Shown: piece by piece, positions 3,011-12,851 of the stretch
Numbering within the stretch: position 1 is the first letter of the stretch
Layout: the number at the start of each line of letters is the position of its first letter
NCBI GenBank assembly: GCA_003167305.1
Contig: PMTP01000032.1
Coordinates: 1-21,925, forward strand
Reading direction: 5' to 3'
From: Acidobacteriaceae bacterium
Lineage (GTDB): Bacteria; Acidobacteriota; Terriglobia; Terriglobales; Acidobacteriaceae
Length of the DNA: 21,925 nt
The notes under the pieces: generated by a model
What the model was told of the DNA's origin: nothing
Database searches by the model: none
Seen by the model: the letters and a program-made list of their open reading frames with translations, nothing else
Program-made: the position numbers and the translations under genes

Positions 3011-3140
3011 TCCAGTGGTCAGTGGTCATTTTTCAGTGATCAGATAAAAACGACCTTTGATCGCCGATGAATCTGGCGTTTCCAGTGGCCAGCGGTCAGC
3101 GACAACTGAGAACTGACCACTGACAACTGAATACTGACGC
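3011..3140. repeat. Cluster of degenerate CAGTGGTCA / TGACCACTG repeats between two VWA genes
   Basis: The left part (3011-3042) carries CAGTGGTCAGTGGTCA and then CAGTGATCAG. The middle (3088-3109) carries CAGTGGCCAGCGGTCAG. The right part (3106-3138) carries the opposite orientation as ACTGACCACTGACAACTGA with variants. Unit length is about 7-10 bases with frequent one-base changes. Similar low-complexity TCAGTGGTCA strings are, from memory, dispersed in intergenic DNA of several acidobacteria. The cluster occupies the region where the promoters of both VWA genes should lie. Confidence 0.75.
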
Positions 3141-4469: not shown

Positions 4470-5117
4470 ATGATCCTTCTGGACCCAGACCTGGAACCTG
4501 ACCCCGCGCCGAGCATGGCTTCGACGGAGCGGACGGCTGCTCTGGGCACCTTGGTAACTCCCCGCTCCCGCCGCCTTCCCACCGCCCGCACGTTGGCCCG
4601 TTTTCTATCCCAGGCGCAGGCCGCTGTTCGCTTACGCGGCGAGGTAACCGTGCTGTTCACAACCGACGCCGCGATGCGCAAACTCAATCGCCGGTTCCGC
4701 GGCAAGAACAAGGCAACCGACGTGCTTTCGTTTCCGGCGGATGGCATCGGCGCTGAAGAAATCGCCGGCGATCTGGCCATCAGCGTGCCCACCGCGCTGC
4801 GCCAGGCCGTCGAGCGGAATCACTCGCTTTCGACCGAGATCAAGGTGCTCATCCTGCATGGCTTGCTCCACCTGGCCGGCCACGACCACGTGGCCGATAT
4901 GGGCAAGATGGCCCGCCGCGAGAGGCTGCTCCGCACACGGCTGGGCCTGTCGCAAGGGCTGATCGAGCGCGCGGAAACTCGGGTGCCCCAGGTCCGGATT
5001 TTCGGACCTGGGAATCCACAAACCTCAACCCGCAAACGGGGGGCGGGTGGCCCAGGTCTCGATTTTGAGACCTGGGAATCCACGAACCGCAACCCGCTAC
5101 CGGGAGTCCGGCCATGA
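4470..5117 (+). CDS. ybeY: Endoribonuclease YbeY with repeat-derived C-terminal extension
   Basis: YbeY is a zinc-dependent RNase of 16S rRNA maturation and ribosome quality control. The zinc motif HGLLHLAGHDH is intact (His130, His134, His140), preceded by the family segments LNRRFRGKNKATDVLSFP and GDLAISV. The ATG at 4470 has GAGG three bases upstream; Met16 is an alternative start. The family is usually about 150-170 residues, but this protein has 215. The natural end appears to be near RTRLGLSQGLIERAE (about residue 168). Residues 169-215 are encoded by two tandem copies of a 60-bp palindromic element. The first copy is read in the same frame as the copy inside era (TRVPQV). The stop overlaps the next start (ATGA), so translation of the CBS protein is probably coupled. 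The gene order ybeY-corC-like-era is common in bacteria; phoH is not directly upstream here. Confidence 0.93.
   Translation: MILLDPDLEPDPAPSMASTERTAALGTLVTPRSRRLPTARTLARFLSQAQAAVRLRGEVTVLFTTDAAMRKLNRRFRGKNKATDVLSFPADGIGAEEIAGDLAISVPTALRQAVERNHSLSTEIKVLILHGLLHLAGHDHVADMGKMARRERLLRTRLGLSQGLIERAETRVPQVRIFGPGNPQTSTRKRGAGGPGLDFETWESTNRNPLPGVRP
4981..5040 (+). repeat. Palindromic element copy A (inside ybeY)
   Basis: A 60-base unit begins GGGTGCCCCAGGTC and ends CAACCCGCAAACGGG. A perfect 10-bp stem pairs 4987-4996 with 5003-5012 around the loop GATTTT. It matches copy B at 51 of 60 positions by my count. It is read through in the ybeY frame. Confidence 0.85.
5045..5104 (+). repeat. Palindromic element copy B (inside ybeY 3' end)
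   Basis: A direct repeat of copy A, offset by 64 bases. The 10-bp stem pairs 5051-5060 with 5067-5076 around GATTTT. Against copy A, two adjacent stem pairs are swapped on both arms (15-24 and 16-23 within the unit), so pairing is preserved. It is translated in a frame different from copy A because 64 is not a multiple of three. Confidence 0.85.
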
Positions 5118-6427
5118 CCCCGCTCTTCATTCTCCTTATCCTCTTCCTCGCCGCGGTCGAGACGCTGGCCTCGTACATCAGCCGCGTCTACAGCGAGTTC
5201 GGCAAGATTCTGACCCGCGAAATCGAAGAAAACCTCGACGCCTGGGAGGAACTGGTCGAACCGCAACTGGGCCTCACTCGCGGACACGCGGAGATCTGCG
5301 CGGCCGTCTTGCAGCAGCTCACCCTGGGCATCATCGCCCTCGAGTTCGGCGCCGTCCTCTTTGATCGCGCCCCATATCTGGCCCGCCCCACCCCCGGCGA
5401 GATCGCCCAGGCCGTTCTCGCCGTGGTGCTGGTGGTGGTCTTCTGCAACCATCTTCTGCCCACGATGCTCTTCAACCGCACGCGCGGGCGCTGGGCGAGG
5501 CGTCTGGTCTGGCCCATCCGTTTGCTGCTCTGGCTGATGACGCCCATCACCGTCTTCGTGCGCTTCTTTTACTCCGTGGCCTCGCTGGCCGAGGAGCCGG
5601 TCACTGCCGAAGAGGAGAGCGAAGCTGATGTGGAGGCGCTGCTCGAAGCCGGCGAAGAAGAGGGCATCCTTGAAGAGAGCGACCGCGAGCTGGTCCGCTC
5701 CGCCGTCGAGTTCGGCGACAAGCTGGTCCGCGAGGTGATGACTCCGCGCCCCGAGGTCTTCGCCGTGCCCGCGACCCTCACCCTGGAAGCCTTCCTCGAA
5801 GAGCTGCGCGAGCACAACTTCTCTCGCGTGCCGGTCTACTCGGGCTCCATCGACAACATTACCGGCATCGCCTTCGCCCACGACCTGCTGCAAATCGCCG
5901 ATACCGAGGCCGGCGCACGCACCGTCGCCAGCATGGCGCGCGAGGCGGAGTTCGTCCCCGAAACCAAGCGCGTCTACGAGCTGCTGCGCGAGATGCAGCG
6001 CGAGAAGCAGCACATGCGCATCGTGATCGACGAGTACGGCGGCGTTAGCGGCTTGGTCACCATCGAAGACCTGCTCGAAGAGATCGTCGGCGAAATCCGC
6101 GATGAGCACGAAGAGGAGACTCCCATCGAAGAGCCGCAACGCGAACCCGGCGGCGTCTGGCTCATTCCCGGCAGCTTCCCCGTCGACCAATTGCCCAGCC
6201 TCTTCGGCGAGTCGGCCAGCCTGAGTGATCTGGACGGAGCCTATGAAGCCACCACGCTGGGTGGCCTGGTCAGCGAGATCGAAGGCCGCATCCCGCTCCC
6301 CGGCGAAGTTGTTCTGCTGGAATCCGCCGGCCTGCGCATGGAAATCGTAGCCTCCACCGACCGCCGCGTCGAGCGCCTGCGCGTCTTTCCGCCGGCAGGT
6401 GAAGCGGGATCAACGCCTGCTTCTTAA
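5114..6427 (+). CDS. CorC/HlyC-family membrane protein with paired CBS domains
   Basis: The 437-residue protein has four hydrophobic segments (about 3-18, 60-83, 97-119, 131-157) forming a divergent CNNM-type membrane part. A very acidic linker (158-185) follows, then GILEESDRELVRSAVEF and the hallmark VREVMTPRPEVFAV at the start of CBS1. CBS2 ends with DEYGGVSGLVTIEDLLEEIVGEI (307-329). A CorC_HlyC transporter-associated domain fills about 345-430. Such proteins are implicated in Mg2+/Co2+ homeostasis, with CBS domains sensing adenine nucleotides or Mg-ATP; some are called hemolysins without proof of lytic activity. The ATG overlaps the ybeY stop by four bases. The membrane part is shorter at its N-terminus than in many homologues. 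Family assignment is firm; substrate is uncertain. Confidence 0.9.
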   Translation: MTPLFILLILFLAAVETLASYISRVYSEFGKILTREIEENLDAWEELVEPQLGLTRGHAEICAAVLQQLTLGIIALEFGAVLFDRAPYLARPTPGEIAQAVLAVVLVVVFCNHLLPTMLFNRTRGRWARRLVWPIRLLLWLMTPITVFVRFFYSVASLAEEPVTAEEESEADVEALLEAGEEEGILEESDRELVRSAVEFGDKLVREVMTPRPEVFAVPATLTLEAFLEELREHNFSRVPVYSGSIDNITGIAFAHDLLQIADTEAGARTVASMAREAEFVPETKRVYELLREMQREKQHMRIVIDEYGGVSGLVTIEDLLEEIVGEIRDEHEEETPIEEPQREPGGVWLIPGSFPVDQLPSLFGESASLSDLDGAYEATTLGGLVSEIEGRIPLPGEVVLLESAGLRMEIVASTDRRVERLRVFPPAGEAGSTPAS

Positions 6428-6443
6428 TTCCCGAACAGAGGCT

Positions 6444-6509
6444 GGGTGCCCCATCCTTTCGCGTACTTTGAGAAAGGGTGGGAAACTACAAACCTCAACC
6501 TGAACCCGT
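6444..6509 (+). repeat. Palindromic element copy D (intergenic, convergent gene ends)
   Basis: The unit begins GGGTGCCCCATCCTTTC and has the right arm GAAAGGGTGGGA. An 11-bp stem with one G-T wobble pairs 6450-6460 with 6472-6482. Its tail (ACAAACCTCAACC) matches the tail of copy A although the stem sequence is different. It lies between the converging ends of the CBS gene and the GNAT gene, where the hairpin could also weaken read-through. No T-run follows. Confidence 0.82.
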
Positions 6510-6517
6510 CGATCGGG

Positions 6518-7069
6518 CTAATCTCCCCGATTCTTCCATGCGCGCCACTCGTCGGCAGTCAGCTCCCAGACTTCCGCCTGAAATGGACCCGAAACGTAAT
6601 CCCGCTCAACCACGGTCACGACGCGCATTCCCTGCTTCACAGAGATTCGGCGCGACGGATAGTTGGAAACAGCCTTGGCAACTCGCAAAATGGGAAATCC
6701 GAGGTTATCAAACCAAAAGTCATTGGCCCATACGCAAGCCTCGCTCATCATCCCAAGCCCATGCCAGGGAAGGCCAAGCCAGAATTTGCGATTATCCCAA
6801 GCGCCTTTGAACAGGCTGATGAGCCCGATCATTTGGGATGGCTCGGTGGCCAGGCGGATCGTCCAGTGCCACGCTTCTCCGCGCGCTGCCTGGGGAAGTG
6901 CAATGTCCCGGCAATACAGGAGCGCGCCATCGGGCGGGTAGGGCCAAGGCACGCGATTCAGCAGAAAACGAACGATCTCCCATTGCGGGAAGAGCGCCTG
7001 CATCTGCCGCGCATCGGCCATCTCCAGCGGGCGAAGAATAAGGCGTTCAGTTTGGCCTTCGCTGCCCAT
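6518..7069 (-). CDS. GNAT-family N-acetyltransferase (RimJ/RimL-like)
   Basis: The 183-residue protein starts at ATG 7069-7067. The motif TERLILRPLEMADARQM at residues 7-23 is the typical first strand and helix of RimJ/RimL-type acetyltransferases. FWLGLPWHGLGMMSEA is the acetyl-CoA pyrophosphate-binding loop region, and SNYPSRRISVKQGMRV matches the late N-x-x-S helix with KxG. These enzymes transfer acetyl groups from acetyl-CoA to protein N-termini or small amines; the substrate here is unknown. A TTG two codons upstream (7075) sits better behind a GGGGG stretch and is an alternative start. The gene opposes its neighbours and interrupts what is otherwise a ybeY-corC-era order. It is a single transcription unit, convergent with the CBS gene and divergent from era. 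Confidence 0.85.
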   Translation of the reverse strand: MGSEGQTERLILRPLEMADARQMQALFPQWEIVRFLLNRVPWPYPPDGALLYCRDIALPQAARGEAWHWTIRLATEPSQMIGLISLFKGAWDNRKFWLGLPWHGLGMMSEACVWANDFWFDNLGFPILRVAKAVSNYPSRRISVKQGMRVVTVVERDYVSGPFQAEVWELTADEWRAWKNRGD

Positions 7070-7134
7070 ACGCAATGATAGCCCCCTGGCTCTTCGAAAT
7101 CCGCGATAATAGTAGTCAGGAGTCTGAAAACCCT

Positions 7135-8241
7135 TTGAAATCTGGATTTGTCGCCATTCTCGGCCGGCCGAACGCCGGTAAAAGCACACTGCTCAACGCC
7201 CTGACCGGCGAAAAGGTCGCCATCGTCTCCGCCAAGCCGCAGACTACCCGCAATCGCATCGCCGGGGTGGTCGAGGTTCCGGCGCGCAAGGGCGTGCATC
7301 CGGCGGCGCAGATCGTCTTTGTCGATACTCCCGGCGTCCACAAGCCCGGCTCGCACCTCGACCGGCGGATGTTGCAAGAGGTCTACGAAGCACTGGAAAC
7401 CCGCGATGTGGTGCTGGTACTGATGGATGCGACGCGGCGAGTGCAGTTGGAAGCAGCTGCGGAACCTGCCACCCGGGTGCCCCAGGTCTCGACTTTGAGA
7501 CCTGGGAGTCCAGAATCCCCCAAACGCGAGCGCACCAACTGGGCCAGCGAGGACGAGTTCCTCTTCGGCCTGATCCGCAAGCTCGACTGCCCGGTCTTTC
7601 TGCTGCTCACCAAGATCGATCTCGTCGCCAAGGACCATCTGCTGCCGCTGATCGACACGCTGACCCGGCACTTCGGCTTTGCACAGGTTATTCCGGTGAG
7701 CGCCCGCAAGCGCGACGGTCTGAACCTCCTTATTCGCAAGATCGTCGAGGCGCTGCCCGTTGGCGAGCGCTACTACCCCAAGGACCAGTACACCGACCAG
7801 CCGCAGCGCTTCATGGTCGCTGAGTTGATTCGCGAGAGCATTCTGGTCGAGACTGGCGAAGAGGTTCCCTACGCCTCGGCCGTGGTGATTGAGCGCTACG
7901 AAGAGGCCGAGCCGCCGGCTCCGCCGCGCAAGAAAGGCCAAGCTCCGGCCCGGTTACCGCTCACACGCATCGCGGCGGCGATTTATTGTGAGCGCGACGG
8001 ACAGAAGGCGATTCTGATCGGCAAAGGCGGCTCCAAGCTGAAGGAGATCGGCACCGGCGCGCGGCACAAGATCGAGTCGCTGATCGGCACACGGGTTTAT
8101 CTGGAGCTGCATGTCATTGTCGAACCCGGCTGGCGGGAGTCGAAGAGCTTTGTCGAGTCGCTTGACTGGCGGAATCAGTTGGAGCGGCTGGCCGGAGATC
8201 AGATCATAGTAAAGCCGCGTGACGAAGATGGTTTGGTTTAG
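7135..8241 (+). CDS. era: GTPase Era with palindromic-element insertion in the G domain
   Basis: Era binds the 3' end of 16S rRNA and couples 30S maturation to GTP hydrolysis. The start is taken as TTG at 7135 (product begins KSGFVAILGRPN), because AGGAG lies at 7118-7122 and a GATAAT at 7104-7109 would place transcription start after the upstream ATG at 7075; that ATG remains an alternative. Motifs numbered from 7135: G1 GRPNAGKS (10-17), G2 TT (37-38), G3 DTPG (64-67), G4 TKID (159-162), G5 SARK (189-192). The C-terminal KH domain shows AILIGKGGSKLKEIG and ends with LELHVIVEPGWRE. Length is 368 residues against about 300 usually. Residues about 113-136 between G3 and G4 come from a palindromic element, and a Pro-rich loop (EAEPPAPPRKKG) lengthens the linker before the KH core. 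Confidence 0.95.
   Translation: MKSGFVAILGRPNAGKSTLLNALTGEKVAIVSAKPQTTRNRIAGVVEVPARKGVHPAAQIVFVDTPGVHKPGSHLDRRMLQEVYEALETRDVVLVLMDATRRVQLEAAAEPATRVPQVSTLRPGSPESPKRERTNWASEDEFLFGLIRKLDCPVFLLLTKIDLVAKDHLLPLIDTLTRHFGFAQVIPVSARKRDGLNLLIRKIVEALPVGERYYPKDQYTDQPQRFMVAELIRESILVETGEEVPYASAVVIERYEEAEPPAPPRKKGQAPARLPLTRIAAAIYCERDGQKAILIGKGGSKLKEIGTGARHKIESLIGTRVYLELHVIVEPGWRESKSFVESLDWRNQLERLAGDQIIVKPRDEDGLV
7475..7534 (+). repeat. Palindromic element copy C (in frame inside era)
   Basis: GGGTGC is followed by a perfect 10-bp stem (CCCAGGTCTC at 7481-7490 with GAGACCTGGG at 7497-7506) around the loop GACTTT. The stem equals that of copy B. The 3' tail is only loosely similar to copies A and B, so the right border is approximate. 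It is translated as TRVPQVSTLRPGSPE in Era. Confidence 0.82.
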
Positions 8242-8252
8242 CCAAGACACAT

Positions 8253-9278
8253 TTAGCTGGAAGCGGGGGGCTTCTCTGCCGAAGGCGGCTCCGGCGGCGG
8301 GGTGGCCAAGGGCAGAATCTGCACCAGCGAGGGTGCAGCGGGTGCGGCCGGCCCCATTGCGGCCTCATGCTGGCGGCGCCCCGCCGCGTCCAGGTCCACC
8401 GGAATGCCGCCCGGCACAATCAACGACGCATTATATTTGTAGTCCAGCTCACGCGTCAGGCGATAGACCACCGGCAGCGCGATCAGCAGCGCAACGAAGG
8501 CCACCCAACTGCCGTCCAGCCCAAAGCCTCCGCCGGTCAGCCAGAACGGCCCCATCGGATTGCCCTGCACCACCGGCGAATGATTGCTGACGCCGCTGAT
8601 GGCCAGCCCGAAGACCAGCGCGCGGCTGGCCTTCCAGCCGAAGTTGATCCCCCAGCTCACCCACAATGCGCGGCTGCGTAGGTAAGCTGTAGAGAGCACC
8701 AGACTCAGCATCACCGAGACGGCAATGCTGGCGTGGTTCGATCCGGGCAGAAGCGCCTGCACAATGGCATAAAAGGCCGCAAAGCCGAGCGCCGCTCCCA
8801 GCGGACCCACCGCGCGTTCAAATCGTTGAAACCCGTAGCCGCGAAAGGCAATTTCTTCAGCCAGCGCGGCCAGCGCGAAGAATGCAGCGTCGGCCATGAG
8901 CCATCCCCAGGCAGAAGGCCCCAGAACCAGCACAATGGCGATGCCACCGCCCACGACCATCGGTAAAACGCAAGCCACGGCCAGCGCCCAGCCCACGGCC
9001 ACGCCCATTCCCGCCTCGCCCGGACAGCCGCTCCGCCATGGCAGCCCCTGCGCGCTCACCGGATGGGCCTCGCGGTCGAGCCAAAAGCCCATCACCGCAT
9101 AGCCCAGCAGCAGCAGAAATGCCAGCAACGCTTGTTCTACCAGCGGCAGAAACGGTTCGGTCGCATCTCCCAGCGCTAGGCGATGAGCCAGCCCCCGCGC
9201 CAGAAAGAAGTAGAGGACCGCGGCGACAAATTGGACATACGCCCGGAAGCGGCTGTTGGCGGGCTGGGGAGTGCTCAT
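8253..9278 (-). CDS. CPBP-type (CAAX protease-like) integral membrane protein, active site partly degenerate
   Basis: The 341-residue product is mostly hydrophobic, with about seven or eight membrane segments between residues 13 and 275. ATG 9278 is preferred because GGAAGG lies nine bases upstream; ATG 9284 overlaps the accA stop directly. EEIAFRGYGFQRFE at 141-154 is the first motif of the CPBP/Abi family (EExxxR), which contains glutamic intramembrane proteases. The later histidine motifs are not evident: the second reads AFYAIVQ and the third reads WVSWGINFGWKAS, with Asn212 where His is usual. The C-terminal 60 residues are cytoplasmic or exposed and Pro/Ala-rich. The gene follows accA with only a stop-start contact, so the two are probably co-transcribed. 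The role is unknown; loss of peptidase activity is possible. Confidence 0.82.
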   Translation of the reverse strand: MSTPQPANSRFRAYVQFVAAVLYFFLARGLAHRLALGDATEPFLPLVEQALLAFLLLLGYAVMGFWLDREAHPVSAQGLPWRSGCPGEAGMGVAVGWALAVACVLPMVVGGGIAIVLVLGPSAWGWLMADAAFFALAALAEEIAFRGYGFQRFERAVGPLGAALGFAAFYAIVQALLPGSNHASIAVSVMLSLVLSTAYLRSRALWVSWGINFGWKASRALVFGLAISGVSNHSPVVQGNPMGPFWLTGGGFGLDGSWVAFVALLIALPVVYRLTRELDYKYNASLIVPGGIPVDLDAAGRRQHEAAMGPAAPAAPSLVQILPLATPPPEPPSAEKPPASS

Positions 9279-9283
9279 GGTCA

Positions 9284-10123
9284 TCAACCTTCCGTATAGA
9301 ACTGCGCGATCGTGCGAAATTTGGCCTGGCGCGCGGCCACCAGCTCGTCGACGGGCTGCGCCTTCAGTTCGTCCAGGTGCTTCTTGAGCGCCATGCCAAC
9401 CAGGCCGCATCCCGCCACGCGGTCGGTGTGAATCCCCTCCGGCGGTTCCAGAATAATTTCGTCCACGCAGCCCAGCGCGGCCACTTCTGGCGCACTGATG
9501 CGCATTGCTTCCGCGGCCAGTTGTTTGTGCGCCGCATCGTGCCACATAATGGCCGCGCACGACTCCGGCGTAATGACAAAGTAGAGCGCATTCTCCAGAA
9601 TCAGCACACGATCCGCTACGGCCAAAGCCAGCGCGCCGCCCGATCCGCCCTCGCCGCTGATCACCGAGATCGTCGGCACCCTCAGCCGCGACATCTCCAG
9701 CAGATTCCGCGCAATCGCCTCGGCCTGGCCCCGCTCCTCCGCGCCCAACCCCGGAAAAGCCCCTGGCAGATCGATAAAGCTGATCACCGGCCGCCCAAAC
9801 TTCTCGGCAATCTTCATCGCCCGGAGCGCCTTGCGGTAGCCCTCCGGATGCGGCATTCCGAAGTTGCGCCGCACGCGATCTTTCGTCGATCCGCCCTTGC
9901 GGTTGCCGATCACCAGCACCTCTTCGCCCTGGAGGCGCGCCATTCCGCAAGCCACGGCCTCGTCGTCGCCATAGGCGCGATCCCCGTGAATCTCGCTGAA
10001 ATCCGTAAAGATTCGCTCAATAAAATCCATTGGGTAAGGCCGCTGCGGATGCCGCGCCCGCTCGATCCTGATCCATGCCGGTGATGACATCTGTGCCTGA
10101 GGGGAAGTTGCCTGTTCGCTCAT
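9284..10123 (-). CDS. accA: Acetyl-CoA carboxylase carboxyltransferase subunit alpha
   Basis: AccA pairs with AccD to move the carboxyl group from carboxybiotin to acetyl-CoA, giving malonyl-CoA for fatty acid synthesis. The 279 residues show the family signatures in order: PMDFIERIFTDFSEIHGDRAYGDD, GNRKGGSTKDRVRRNFGMPHPEGYRKALR, ISFIDLPGAFPGLGAEERGQAEAIA, and the crotonase-fold oxyanion region SGEGGSGGALALAVADRV, then TPESCAAIMWHDAAHKQLAAEAMRI. The N-terminus is shorter than in E. coli (about 319 aa), lacking part of the leading helical region, as in several other phyla. AGGAG lies three bases before the ATG. No accD is in the window. It heads a probable two-gene unit with the CPBP protein and is divergent from the PASTA gene. 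Confidence 0.95.
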   Translation of the reverse strand: MSEQATSPQAQMSSPAWIRIERARHPQRPYPMDFIERIFTDFSEIHGDRAYGDDEAVACGMARLQGEEVLVIGNRKGGSTKDRVRRNFGMPHPEGYRKALRAMKIAEKFGRPVISFIDLPGAFPGLGAEERGQAEAIARNLLEMSRLRVPTISVISGEGGSGGALALAVADRVLILENALYFVITPESCAAIMWHDAAHKQLAAEAMRISAPEVAALGCVDEIILEPPEGIHTDRVAGCGLVGMALKKHLDELKAQPVDELVAARQAKFRTIAQFYTEG

Positions 10124-10350
10124 CAGCTCCTGTGCGGCTCCCGGCGCGTAATCCAGCGCAATCCACCGCTAATGCTGATTCTACGGGCCGCGGGCCGCCG
10201 AAACAAATCGTCAACACTCCGGGGTGGGTTCCTGGCATACACGGCGCTGTTTTTGAAGATTGCCGGATCATTCGACAATCGAAAGAAATTGTTGGCTTCA
10301 CGGCGATTACTTGTTCAGGCCTTCTCTCCCGAGGGACAATAGAAACTAAT

Positions 10351-11118
10351 ATGAGAACTCGCCACTTCGTCTACTTTTTCCAAGTGGGTTCGCTGGTGAT
10401 GCTGCTGGTGGCAACGGCGCTGCTGGCGGCCATCGCCACCATGCACTTCGCCATTCACGGCGCGGAAGTGCAGGTGCCCGCGCTCAAAGGGATGACCGTG
10501 GCCGAAGCGCGCAGCCAGACCTCGGGACTGGGCCTTGATCTGGACGTGGACAATCGCTACTACTCGGGAGACGTAGCTCAGGGACATATTCTTACGCAGT
10601 CGCCCGCGCCGGGAACGGTGGTGCGGCGGGAGTGGCGCGTGCGCGTCTCTGAGAGCCTGGGGCCGCAAAAGGTGGAAGTGCCGGAGACCGTGGGTTTGGA
10701 TGAGCGCGTGGCGGCGCTGGAGTTGCGGCGCGTAGGCCTGGAGGTGGGCGTGACGGCGCGGCTTCCCTACGGCGCGGCGGCCGAGGGAACGGTACTGGCC
10801 CAGGATCCGCCGGCGCACGCTCAGGGCATTGCGCGGCCCAGCATCAACCTGCTGGTGGCCGCGGCAAGCGACGATGCGCCCGACGGCTTTGTCATGCCCG
10901 ATCTGGCTGGCCTGCCGGTGGTCAGCGCACAGGCTGAGCTGTCCAGGGTGGGCATCCAGTCCGCGACAAAATTTGTGGATGTACCGGTTGCGCCGATCGG
11001 CAACGGAGACGCGCTCTCCATGCCGCCTGTGAAGCCGGGTGCGGTAATAGTGCAATGGCCGCCGGCCGGCGCGCGTGTCGAACAGAGCGATCTGGTGAAG
11101 CTGACGGTGGCGAAGTGA
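10351..11118 (+). CDS. Membrane-anchored protein with three PASTA domains
   Basis: The 255-residue product starts at ATG 10351; the frame is open further upstream but only overlaps accA antisense. One membrane helix spans about 11-36 with a short basic N-terminus, placing the rest outside. Three PASTA repeats follow at about 40-100 (VQVPALKGMTVAEARSQ, ending TVVRREWRVRVS), 107-171 (VEVPETVGLDERVAALELRR) and 180-255 (FVMPDLAGLPVVSAQAEL, ending LVKLTVAK). Each has the usual early VPxLxG and late QxPxxGxxV elements. PASTA domains of Ser/Thr kinases and penicillin-binding proteins bind peptidoglycan fragments. Here there is no kinase or transpeptidase domain, so it is a stand-alone sensor, scaffold or wall-binding protein. 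No close ribosome site is seen (GAGGG at 10331-10335 is 15 bases away). It converges on rsmB. Confidence 0.9.
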   Translation: MRTRHFVYFFQVGSLVMLLVATALLAAIATMHFAIHGAEVQVPALKGMTVAEARSQTSGLGLDLDVDNRYYSGDVAQGHILTQSPAPGTVVRREWRVRVSESLGPQKVEVPETVGLDERVAALELRRVGLEVGVTARLPYGAAAEGTVLAQDPPAHAQGIARPSINLLVAAASDDAPDGFVMPDLAGLPVVSAQAELSRVGIQSATKFVDVPVAPIGNGDALSMPPVKPGAVIVQWPPAGARVEQSDLVKLTVAK

Positions 11119-11127
11119 GAAAGTCAA

Positions 11128-11158
11128 GGAAATAGGGAGTAGGAAACAGCGAATAGGG
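11128..11158. repeat. Degenerate GGAAATAGGGAGTAGG-type low-complexity repeat
   Basis: Three imperfect units of the form (G)AATAGGG / AGTAGGAA follow the PASTA gene stop. The minus-strand translation of such DNA gives the SLFPTPYF string often seen in spurious ORFs. It is probably non-coding. Confidence 0.5.
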
Positions 11159-11222
11159 CCGCTGTTGAGGCATTCGGACTTCCTATCGGCGCTCGTGGCA
11201 TAAGCGGTAACTACGCTTACTT

Positions 11223-12851
11223 TCAGGCGAATCTTTCAATCAGCGCAATAAAAAAGCCATCCGTACGAAATGCTCCGGGCAGCAGGCGGAGGCAGCCTTC
11301 GGGCGTGAGGCTGCCGCACAGGCGTTCCGCGCCTTCAGGCGTTAGAATGTCTTTGCGAAGAAGCTGATCGATGCGGCTTTCGAGCGAAAGCAGGCGAGCG
11401 TTCGGGTTTGCGGCAAGCACTGAGGCGACGACCTGCTCGTTCTCTTCCGGCTCCAGCGAACAAGTGGAATAGACTACGAAGCCGCCGGGGCGGACGGCGC
11501 GTAGTGCGGCCGTGAGAATTGCCCGCTGTTGTTCGGCTTGGCGAGCCAGGTCGTCCGGGCGCAGGCGGTGGCGAATCTCCGGATTGCGGCCCAGCGTTCC
11601 GGTGCCGCTACAGGGCACATCGGCCAGCGCAAGGTCGAAGGACGCCTCTTCCGTCAACGCGGTTGCGTCGGCCAAGCGGCATTCGATCCGGCCGCCGAGG
11701 CTGGCCAGCCGCTTCCGCATCTGCTCCAATCTGGGCGTGCTGGATTCGCAAGCCACGATGCTGGCCGTCGGATTGCGCTCGGCCAGGATCAGCGTCTTGC
11801 CGCCGGGCGCGGCGCAGGTATCAAAGATTCTTTTCACTTTTTGGTCGGGATTCTCGCTGGCATGGCTGGCCAGCTCGGCCACCAGTTGCGAGCCCTCATC
11901 CTGAATGCGCACGCGGTCCTCGCGGAAGGCTTCGGTCGCGATTACGTCGCCGGAGACGACAGTGCGCGCGGCGGTGAGCACTTCGCCGGATTCGAGGACG
12001 ATGCCGGCTGCGCTGAGTTCGGCCAATACAGTTGGGTGCCCCATCCTTTCCGCGTTTTCCTGCGGAAAGGGTGGGAGACCATGAACCCCGACTAGCGGTT
12101 GTCTATCAGTAATAGCATCGGCGATCCGTACCGTCAGAAAGGGCTGGCTCTGGTCGTGGCGGCAGATAGCCCTCACCGCTTCCATGCCGTAGAAATTAAT
12201 CCAGCGCTCGACCATCCACGCGGGGTGGGCTTCCAGGTCTTCCGAAAGTTTTCCCTTTGGGGCTATACAGGCTGCGGAAATACTCGATCCAGAGGGAGGT
12301 TGGAGTTTCAACCTCCGCATAAAGCCAACAGAATCAATGCTGGCTTTAGCCACGGAGGGATGCTTTCCGACAATTTCACCTGAAATCTCGAGTTCTTCCG
12401 CAGCCTGTTCAGCCTTCGCCAGCTTACGCAGCACGGCGTTGACCATGGCGGAGGCGAAGCGATGGCCGGCCTGCTTGGCCAACTCCACGCTCTCGTCGAT
12501 CGCGGCGCGGGCGGGGATGCGGTCCATGCGCAGCAACTGAAATGCGCCCAGGCGCATGGCAATAAGAATCTCCGCGTCGAGCTTGGCGTTGGGCCGGGCG
12601 AGCAGAGAGTGAAACTGGTGGTCGAGGAGAATCTGCCAGCGCAGCACACCCAGCACCAGCGCCGTGGCCAGGTTGCGGTCGGGTGCCGAGAGTGCGTTGA
12701 CGGCTTTGCCGCGCAGCAAATCGTCGCTGTGGGAGTGGCCGCGCTCAACGGCTAGAAGAACGTTGAAGGCGGCTTTGCGGGCGGGGGAGATTTTTGCCGG
12801 ACGATTCTTCGGAGCACTCTTCGCCGCGCCTGCCTTCTTCTTGGCGGTCAT
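11223..12851 (-). CDS. rsmB: 16S rRNA (cytosine-967-C5)-methyltransferase RsmB with two repeat-derived insertions
   Basis: RsmB methylates C967 of 16S rRNA using S-adenosylmethionine. A Lys/Ala/Pro-rich tail leads into the NusB-like RNA-binding domain (about 24-150). The methyltransferase core shows motif I DTCAAPGGKT (344-353), motif IV DVPCSGTGTLGRNPEIR (411-427) with the product-releasing Cys414, and YSTCSLEPEENE (461-472) with catalytic Cys464. At 542 residues it is about 100 longer than usual. Two segments look inserted. Residues about 155-204 lie in the linker between the NusB domain and AHPAWMVERW, and residues about 247-274 lie between VRIADA and VLAELSAAGI. Both map to hairpin-bearing repeat DNA. 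The ATG overlaps the fmt stop (ATGA), so the genes are likely coupled. It is the last gene of the mutL-to-rsmB run. Confidence 0.95.
   Translation of the reverse strand: MTAKKKAGAAKSAPKNRPAKISPARKAAFNVLLAVERGHSHSDDLLRGKAVNALSAPDRNLATALVLGVLRWQILLDHQFHSLLARPNAKLDAEILIAMRLGAFQLLRMDRIPARAAIDESVELAKQAGHRFASAMVNAVLRKLAKAEQAAEELEISGEIVGKHPSVAKASIDSVGFMRRLKLQPPSGSSISAACIAPKGKLSEDLEAHPAWMVERWINFYGMEAVRAICRHDQSQPFLTVRIADAITDRQPLVGVHGLPPFPQENAERMGHPTVLAELSAAGIVLESGEVLTAARTVVSGDVIATEAFREDRVRIQDEGSQLVAELASHASENPDQKVKRIFDTCAAPGGKTLILAERNPTASIVACESSTPRLEQMRKRLASLGGRIECRLADATALTEEASFDLALADVPCSGTGTLGRNPEIRHRLRPDDLARQAEQQRAILTAALRAVRPGGFVVYSTCSLEPEENEQVVASVLAANPNARLLSLESRIDQLLRKDILTPEGAERLCGSLTPEGCLRLLPGAFRTDGFFIALIERFA
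12034..12098 (+). repeat. Palindromic element copy E (inside rsmB, opposite orientation)
   Basis: GGGTGCCCCATCCTTTC starts the unit on the plus strand. A 14-bp stem with one G-T wobble pairs 12040-12053 with 12062-12075, and the tail resembles copy B (ATGAACC, CTAGCGG). The stem core is shared with copy D. Because rsmB is on the minus strand, the element is read from its reverse side and adds about 25 residues (LVGVHGLPPFPQENAERMGHP). Confidence 0.83.
12237..12362. repeat. Second type of hairpin-bearing insert inside rsmB
   Basis: The segment encodes the extra residues about 164-205 of RsmB. It contains a perfect 8-bp hairpin (GGAGGTTG 12295-12302 with CAACCTCC 12309-12316, loop GAGTTT) and a second 7-bp hairpin (AAAGCCA 12321-12327 with TGGCTTT 12341-12347). 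It lacks the GGGTGCCCC border of the other family. Borders are estimated from where RsmB similarity resumes. No second copy exists in the window, so its status as a repeat rests on structure and protein context only. Confidence 0.5.

Follow-up and report, generated by a model that had tools for sequence, protein, structure and literature searches.

GTGC-footed hairpin elements of an acidobacterial genome, best read as REPs with some copies translated in frame

What are the short palindromic elements that lie inside reading frames of an Acidobacteriaceae bacterium without closing those frames, and how did they come to be there? The question is raised by contig PMTP01000032.1, a stretch of 21,925 nucleotides (hereafter the window), which is contig C143 of a 207-contig draft genome of 2.48 Mb and about 80% completeness. 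Two copies of the element lie in ybeY, one lies between genes, one lies in era, and one lies in rsmB (Table 1). A preliminary description had proposed a five-copy palindromic family in this acidobacterium; all five copies are indeed present, each with its foot on the + strand. Their best reading, which the preliminary description did not contain, is that they behave as repetitive extragenic palindromes (REPs). With considerable confidence, we assign them to a system of REPs and REP-associated tyrosine transposases (RAYTs), in which the copies inside genes are in-frame survivors.

Anatomy and abundance of the family

A consensus drawn from 99 unique copies, 1 of them discarded as a chance match, begins with an A-rich upstream stretch, followed by (G/C)(G/C)GTGC or GTGG, a hairpin with a CCCA/TGGG base, an A, and a AACCACGAACCTCAACCGG-like tail that is often lost in part; the Era copy in the window retains almost none of it. 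The foot lies directly 5' of the hairpin and is mostly GTGC, with GTGG as a minority. On these common borders sit three main stem classes, AGGTC (31-nt core), ATCC.. (36 to 42 nt), and ACCCTCG.. (45 nt). All five window copies fold as DNA hairpins, with z-scores against shuffles of −3.00, −4.71, −1.80, −2.43, and −3.98 in positional order, the intergenic copy at 6443 being the weakest.

In the genome, the strict family pattern, GTGCCCCAN{16,40}TGGGA, has 137 matches, whereas its reverse has 0; further copies of the family, whose lack would have refuted it, are thus plentiful. At least 2 of the listed strict matches are not hairpins (one is L028), so a few of the 137 are due to chance; L130 and L028 were dropped as chance pattern matches. 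A foot-variant pattern, GTNGCCCA..TGGGA, gave 29 matches versus 5 for its reversed control. About half of the 29 are true GTGG-foot hairpins, all of the AGGTC class, and in this search of the genome both matches with a GTAG foot proved not to be hairpins. Copies frequently stand in tandem, at times with members of differing classes.

The family is widespread among relatives, which include Terracidiphilus gabretensis S55 and Occallatibacter savannae AB23, most of the genomes compared being metagenome-assembled genomes (MAGs). The strict pattern is matched in 36 of 41 genomes (this one and its relatives), and all 24 same-genus genomes match it, mostly with many copies. Across 150 genomes of the order, every one of the 136 genomes of family f1 has at least one match, 63 of them have at least 20, and the maximum is 274; family f2 has 0 to 6 matches per genome, with one or more in 11 of its 14 genomes. 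Reversed controls in this set give 0 to 4 matches per strand, which makes low counts indistinguishable from chance.

A guide rule in PMC8266576 predicts GC as the cleavage dinucleotide. Among the final bases of the left flank, GC is present in 24% to 38% of copies, depending on class, a share not different enough from that of CC for GC to be usable as a marker of the element's end.

Association with RAYT genes

A REP is a short, non-autonomous DNA hairpin that a RAYT, a transposase of the HUH/Y1 type, would recognize as a folded single strand and then cut and rejoin; RAYTs are reported to cut and join REP hairpins and to tolerate changes of the foot (PMC8266576). The corresponding domain, Y1_Tnp (PF01797), is present in 34 of the 41 genomes, and we surveyed 62 of the 94 Y1_Tnp matches in 25 same-genus genomes, this genome included. 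Seventeen of the 62 loci have a copy of the element within 600 bp, and 10 have copies on both sides. In 9 of these 10 two-sided loci the copies are convergent, with the foot towards the gene on each side, and at the tenth (L218) all copies share one orientation. Altogether, 33 copies lie near Y1_Tnp genes; the density in 12 Era neighborhoods, 1 per 15.6 kb, would predict about 4.7.

The proteins themselves point the same way. All 8 that were submitted to the NF047646 model (REP-associated tyrosine transposase) pass its curated cut-off, the match among solved structures is TnpArep (PDB 4er8, E 4.7e-8), and the HUH and Y motifs, read by eye, are EHVH/DHVH and YxHxNP. In a tree of 61 Y1_Tnp proteins, all ten two-sided loci fall into one larger clade with three subclades by stem class: CC-ATCC (L191, L202, and L211; support 97/88), GG-ATCC (L210 and L236, plus the one-sided L229; support 93/97), and AGGTC (L192, L218, L219, L222, and L235; support 96/90). 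Clustering of the labels on the tree exceeds that of shuffled labels for AGGTC and CC-ATCC. The RAYTs of L192, L219, L222, and L229 have, as a separate observation, a C-terminal tail that resembles their own downstream REP.

Several observations weigh against assigning the elements to a REP/RAYT system. RAYT genes standing between inverted copies, the arrangement of a REPtron, are found in relatives and not in this genome's assembly; both of the Y1_Tnp genes of this genome, which is 80% complete, fall outside the REP-flanked clade, while the nearest relative, G004, has three genes inside it (L204, L222, and L226). No copy is found near 45 of the 62 Y1_Tnp loci. The match between RAYT clade and stem class is imperfect, the one-sided loci L187, L198, and L032 being misfits, and for the GG_ATCC label the clustering does not exceed that of shuffles. 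With GTGC dominant, the family taken overall departs from the GT[AG]G foot, to which its GTGG subset conforms. Finally, transposition was not observed, and the empty sites did not reveal a clean target site.

By analogy with the E. coli enzyme, we infer that these RAYTs would move the hairpins by the single-strand mechanism known for it. Copies would land widely, and those within genes would survive where the frame is preserved and the place is a flexible loop, a linker, or a C-terminal tail. The peptides that they encode are most likely tolerated junk.

Copies within genes

Hosts were judged from Pfam matches and alignments with relatives, coding scores over 80 codons on each side being too weak near gene ends. 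The YbeY frame has 226 residues; its Pfam match extends to residue 163 and copy 1 begins at residue 181, which places both YbeY copies in a C-terminal tail. The ybeY site measures 127 nt in the window versus 7 nt in the relative L089, at about 90% DNA identity, a net difference of 120 nt or 40 codons; L089 lacks both copies and keeps the ATGA in which the ybeY stop overlaps the following start. The Era copy is located between G3 (DTPG) and G4 (TKID), where the solved Era structure 9jkp has 3 residues in place of the 36 of the window's Era, and residues 125 to 155 of a model of the latter have a predicted local distance difference test score (pLDDT) below 50, so that the loop is disordered in the model. 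In RsmB, the copy lies between a ferredoxin-like match (residues 216 to 258) and a methyltransferase match (346 to 545), and its site measures 103 nt in the window versus 22 nt in L089, a net 81 nt or 27 codons. The rsmB gene also has a second variable stretch, which is 90 nt in L089 versus 132 nt in the window (42 nt shorter) and differs in sequence.

Four of the copies had been described as translated inside genes; all four do lie in open reading frames (ORFs), and those of Era and RsmB are internal, while the YbeY pair extends the protein at its end. Where relatives lack the element, their loops are shorter and not conserved; the refuting condition, that the same residues be conserved in the absence of element-like DNA, was not borne out.

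A Pfam survey of this genome covered 20 frames picked by score from 101 copies and is not a full count of hosts. Domains continue on both sides of a copy in recG, uvrD, argS, comEC, rsmB, and era. A copy interrupts a flavoprotein domain and another a GHMP kinase, the hypF copy lies in a linker, and C-terminal copies occur in ybeY, tatA, lgt, and a YbaK-like protein. Empty sites were found for comEC in G010 (net 10 codons) and, in G004, for argS (net 8 codons) and hypF (net 105 nt or 35 codons). Most copies are not scored as intragenic: 29 of 227 unique copies, in 13 gene clusters, pass a test that requires both flanks to be coding in one open frame and that misses copies near contig or gene ends.

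Repeated use of the same loops

The Era loop has copies recognizable by arms and foot in 12 of 81 loci (the window, L088, L090, L093, L094, L095, L100, L119, L125, L158, L166, and L167), in both orientations and in several classes. The foot of the L095 copy is degenerate, and degenerate copies occur in L101 and L106. The nearest relative, L089, has a different insert in this loop. The well-supported branches of the Era tree require no fewer than 8 switches between presence and absence of a copy, the labels having been assigned partly by eye. The same loop contains other repeats: CHPERS..ESKDL in L094 and L166, and SGAKAP-like stretches in L089, L092, L097, and L125. In both L094 and L166 the former adjoins a family copy; its peptide resembles a widespread bacterial repeat. 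A further repeat, PFDKLRAGSG, sits in the right arm of the element in Era of L100, L158, and L101 (degenerate) and in RecG of L308; an earlier placement of it in the hairpin loop was wrong. Its occurrence at the same position in two genes means either that it targets that spot or that the composite moves as one.

Copies recur in other enzymes as well. Of 30 ArgS loci, those of this genome, L260, and L272 have clear copies, L269 and L276 have only degenerate ones that lack a foot, and L281 has none. RecG, also in 30 loci, has copies in this genome, L288 (two), L289, and L300, and the composite in L308. UvrD has recognizable copies in 7 of 30 loci, all in one orientation, which may represent a single old insertion. 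ComEC has copies in this genome and G004 only, with unrelated inserts at the same place in other genomes. Survival at permissive places only would explain why the G3-G4 loop of Era, the segment of ArgS before HIGH, RecG, UvrD, ComEC, and the 3' end of ybeY have taken up insertions repeatedly.

Possible change of the hairpin in place

A comparison of about 1.2 Mb of G004 with this genome placed 17 copies by flanks of at least 80% identity. At eleven of the sites both genomes carry a copy. The class is the same at 7 (L015, L025, one site of L069, L080, recG at L081, where G004 has an additional copy, era, and rsmB) and different at 3 (L047, the other site of L069, and L076); at the eleventh, L054, the right arm and loop are altered in what looks like a chimeric hairpin. 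The copy is missing from G004 at L019, L040, L062, and L074, and two overlapping sites at L081 are ambiguous. At L074, this genome has an array of several copies where G004 has a single border motif, reflecting either a deletion between direct repeats or an ancestral site.

At L047, the hairpin in G010 is that of this genome and G004 has another class, and the tail in all three is one C below the consensus; this common, unusual tail speaks for a replacement limited to the hairpin. L076, in the tail of lgt, has differing hairpin classes above a common variant tail. L069 is a weaker case because its tail is mostly lost in G004, where an independent insertion is possible. These sites raise the tentative idea, which we think probably wrong, that REP sites are exchangeable cassettes in which the hairpin is swapped for one of another class via the common borders, with no new insertion. 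The swap could proceed through strand exchange by a RAYT or through gene conversion over the borders of about 10 nt. Cassette exchange, if true, would account for the many stem classes on one pair of borders and would let families diversify their hairpins and the encoded peptides in place.

Reading phase and alternative origins

Could the elements instead be protein-coding palindromes of the kind known as Rickettsia palindromic elements (RPEs), selected or adapted for genes and independent of RAYTs? In-frame copies occur in several core genes, and all 19 internal AGGTC-class copies (in Era, ArgS, RecG, and UvrD) use the (P/S)QVS..RPG phase, in either orientation, which hints at selection on the peptide. 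The phase has exceptions, however: an aromatic phase, PGLDFETW, is used in Era of L095 and in YbeY copy 2, and the set with coding flanks has 18 rows in the first phase and 2 in the second, or 7 versus 2 by distinct gene cluster and orientation. The fractions of copies with an open frame are 0.45, 0.80, and 0.98 for the three phases of the + orientation and 0.68, 0.93, and 0.89 for those of the − orientation. Stops alone thus already favor some phases, and this, together with shared ancestry among many of the 19, weakens the rule. An initial impression that the hairpins are free of stops in all six frames was wrong, as only 21 of 127 copies (core plus tail) are open in all six. Selection on the encoded peptide through the reading phase stays suggestive. 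Given also the small share of copies that pass the coding-flank test and the RAYT genes flanked by copies, an RPE-like origin is very unlikely.

A functional RNA or DNA signal (an attenuator, a gyrase site, or a nucleoid site) under selection, with mobility secondary, would be compatible with REP identity. The hairpins are stable, most are not scored as intragenic, and REPs elsewhere have such roles (PMC3733652). A selected signal would nevertheless have to range from 1 to 274 copies among the genomes of one family and occupy sites where one genome has a copy and another, 90% to 95% identical to it, has none, and Rfam has no match within the window; as the primary explanation it has only a slim chance of being correct.

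The elements are also short, palindromic, high in copy number, and arranged in tandem arrays, as miniature inverted-repeat transposable elements (MITEs) mobilized by a DDE-type insertion sequence would be. Their conserved foot on one side and asymmetric tail stand in place of terminal inverted repeats, the alignments of filled and empty sites, where the flanks have diverged, show no evident target duplication, and the association is with RAYTs, all of which makes a MITE origin highly improbable, although no search aimed at DDE transposases was made. That the reading frames are artefacts of wrong starts or frames or of MAG assembly errors, as might be suspected from the prevalence of MAGs and from the few cases in this genome that depend on coding scores alone, is almost certainly wrong in view of the Pfam domains that flank copies on both sides in six genes and of homologous loops with and without copies over up to 81 loci.

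Features of the window

The coordinates of the copies and their host genes are collected in Table 1. The ORF downstream of ybeY presumably encodes a CorC-like/CBS-domain protein. The window holds another small repeat, with imperfect inverted copies, which is CAGTGGTCAGTGGTCATTTTTCAGT-like.

Table 1. Copies of the element, host genes, and other repeats in the window.
Feature	Position	Strand	Description
Copy 1	4980..5032	+	Foot GTGC; AGGTC class (31-nt core); tail ATCCACAAACCTCAACCCG; YbeY C-terminal tail, peptide RVPQVRIFGPG; absent from L089
Copy 2	5044..5096	+	Foot GTGG; AGGTC class; head-to-tail with copy 1; YbeY tail peptide GGPGLDFETWES, aromatic phase; absent from L089
Copy 3	6443..6502	+	Foot GTGC; class ATCCTTTCGC (core of 38 nt); between genes, 3' of the presumed CorC-like gene; L089 also has a copy
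Copy 4	7474..~7525	+	Foot GTGC; AGGTC class; peptide RVPQVSTLRPGSPESP in Era G3-G4 loop; same in L088, different insert in L089
Copy 5	12033..12092	+	Foot GTGC; class ATCCTTTCCGC (41-nt core); − strand reading GLPPFPQENAERMGHP inside RsmB; present in L088, not in L089
ybeY ORF	4470..5117	+	3' end extended by copies 1 and 2; stop overlaps next start (ATGA)
ORF downstream of ybeY	5114..6427	+
era ORF	7075..8241	+	Contains copy 4; the actual start probably lies a little past 7075
rsmB ORF	11223..12851	−	Contains copy 5
Second variable rsmB stretch	12261-12414		85% inverted repeat
Small repeat	3013-3129		Imperfect inverted copies

Comparison with known systems

On this reading, a group of soil bacteria that is abundant and poorly studied contributes a large REP family whose GTGC foot is unusual. 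Loops of Era, ArgS, and RecG that have been filled, emptied, and refilled over one genus form a natural data set and a direct map of the tolerance of essential enzymes for foreign peptides, and pairs of filled and empty alleles could be used to ask whether RAYTs still move REPs. Hairpin swapping in place, if true, would offer a route for the diversification of REP families, a question left open in the RAYT field. For annotation, acidobacterial stretches such as SQVSKSRPGAP or RVPQVSPLRPG should be read as translated REPs.

How much of this is new? The preliminary description took in-frame palindromes to be a Rickettsia speciality and the present system to be possibly undescribed. The former does not hold, since Di Nocera and others (PMC3733652, 2013) describe REPs inside the enzymes of several bacteria, in frame in uvrA, uvrD-type, recBCD, DNA polymerase I, tRNA synthetase, and truB genes, with enrichment of intragenic REPs in DNA repair genes, REP-encoded tails at gene ends, and differing REPs at about the same recB site in two Xanthomonas species. 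The latter is borne out in part: the principle of in-frame REPs is already known from that paper, while searches of the open-licence literature of PubMed Central turned up no description of the GTGC-footed acidobacterial family, and a search there for the exact sequence gave no title on acidobacteria or REPs among the 20 papers listed. As far as these literature searches tell, the new parts are the GTGC-footed family, the recurrent Era, ArgS, and RecG loops, the nested insertions, and the change of class in place at 3 of 11 sites.

RPEs resemble the present elements in being palindromic repeats translated in frame within genes. They are unrelated in sequence, to judge from tag and foot, no direct alignment with RPE sequences having been made: PMC3733652 places RPE-4 and RPE-6 in a family with a CGTC tag, for which it gives no link to a transposase, whereas here the foot is GTGC or GTGG and copies flank RAYT genes. 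MITEs of bacteria are likewise small, non-autonomous, and hairpin-forming, and differ from the present elements, whose partner is of the HUH/Y1 type and in which neither terminal inverted repeats nor a target duplication could be seen, the flanks being diverged.

The closest likeness is to the REPtrons of PMC6006769 and PMC8266576. There, as here, a hairpin of about 30 to 45 nt with a 5' tetranucleotide foot occurs in high copy number, mostly outside genes and in tandem groups, with inverted copies flanking a RAYT gene and a pairing of RAYT subclade with hairpin, which is imperfect here. PMC6006769 distinguishes RAYT subclasses, with GT[AG]G feet and atypical feet in some classes, and reports frame-preserving REPs within RAYT genes, with the proposal that insertions in loops are harmless. 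The acidobacterial elements differ from the GT[AG]G rule in their mostly GTGC foot, and from REPtrons in having three stem classes on one pair of borders and a change of class in place. With the intragenic REPs of PMC3733652 they share REP-coded tails and in-frame insertion in DNA repair enzymes, helicases, and tRNA synthetases, among others. That paper reports degenerate feet GYRG, GTRG, GTMG, and GTGG, and GTGC is unmentioned in the parts of it consulted. Unlike its families with GTAG or CGTC tags, however, the elements described here are found where the same enzyme loops have been hit across one genus by several repeat families.

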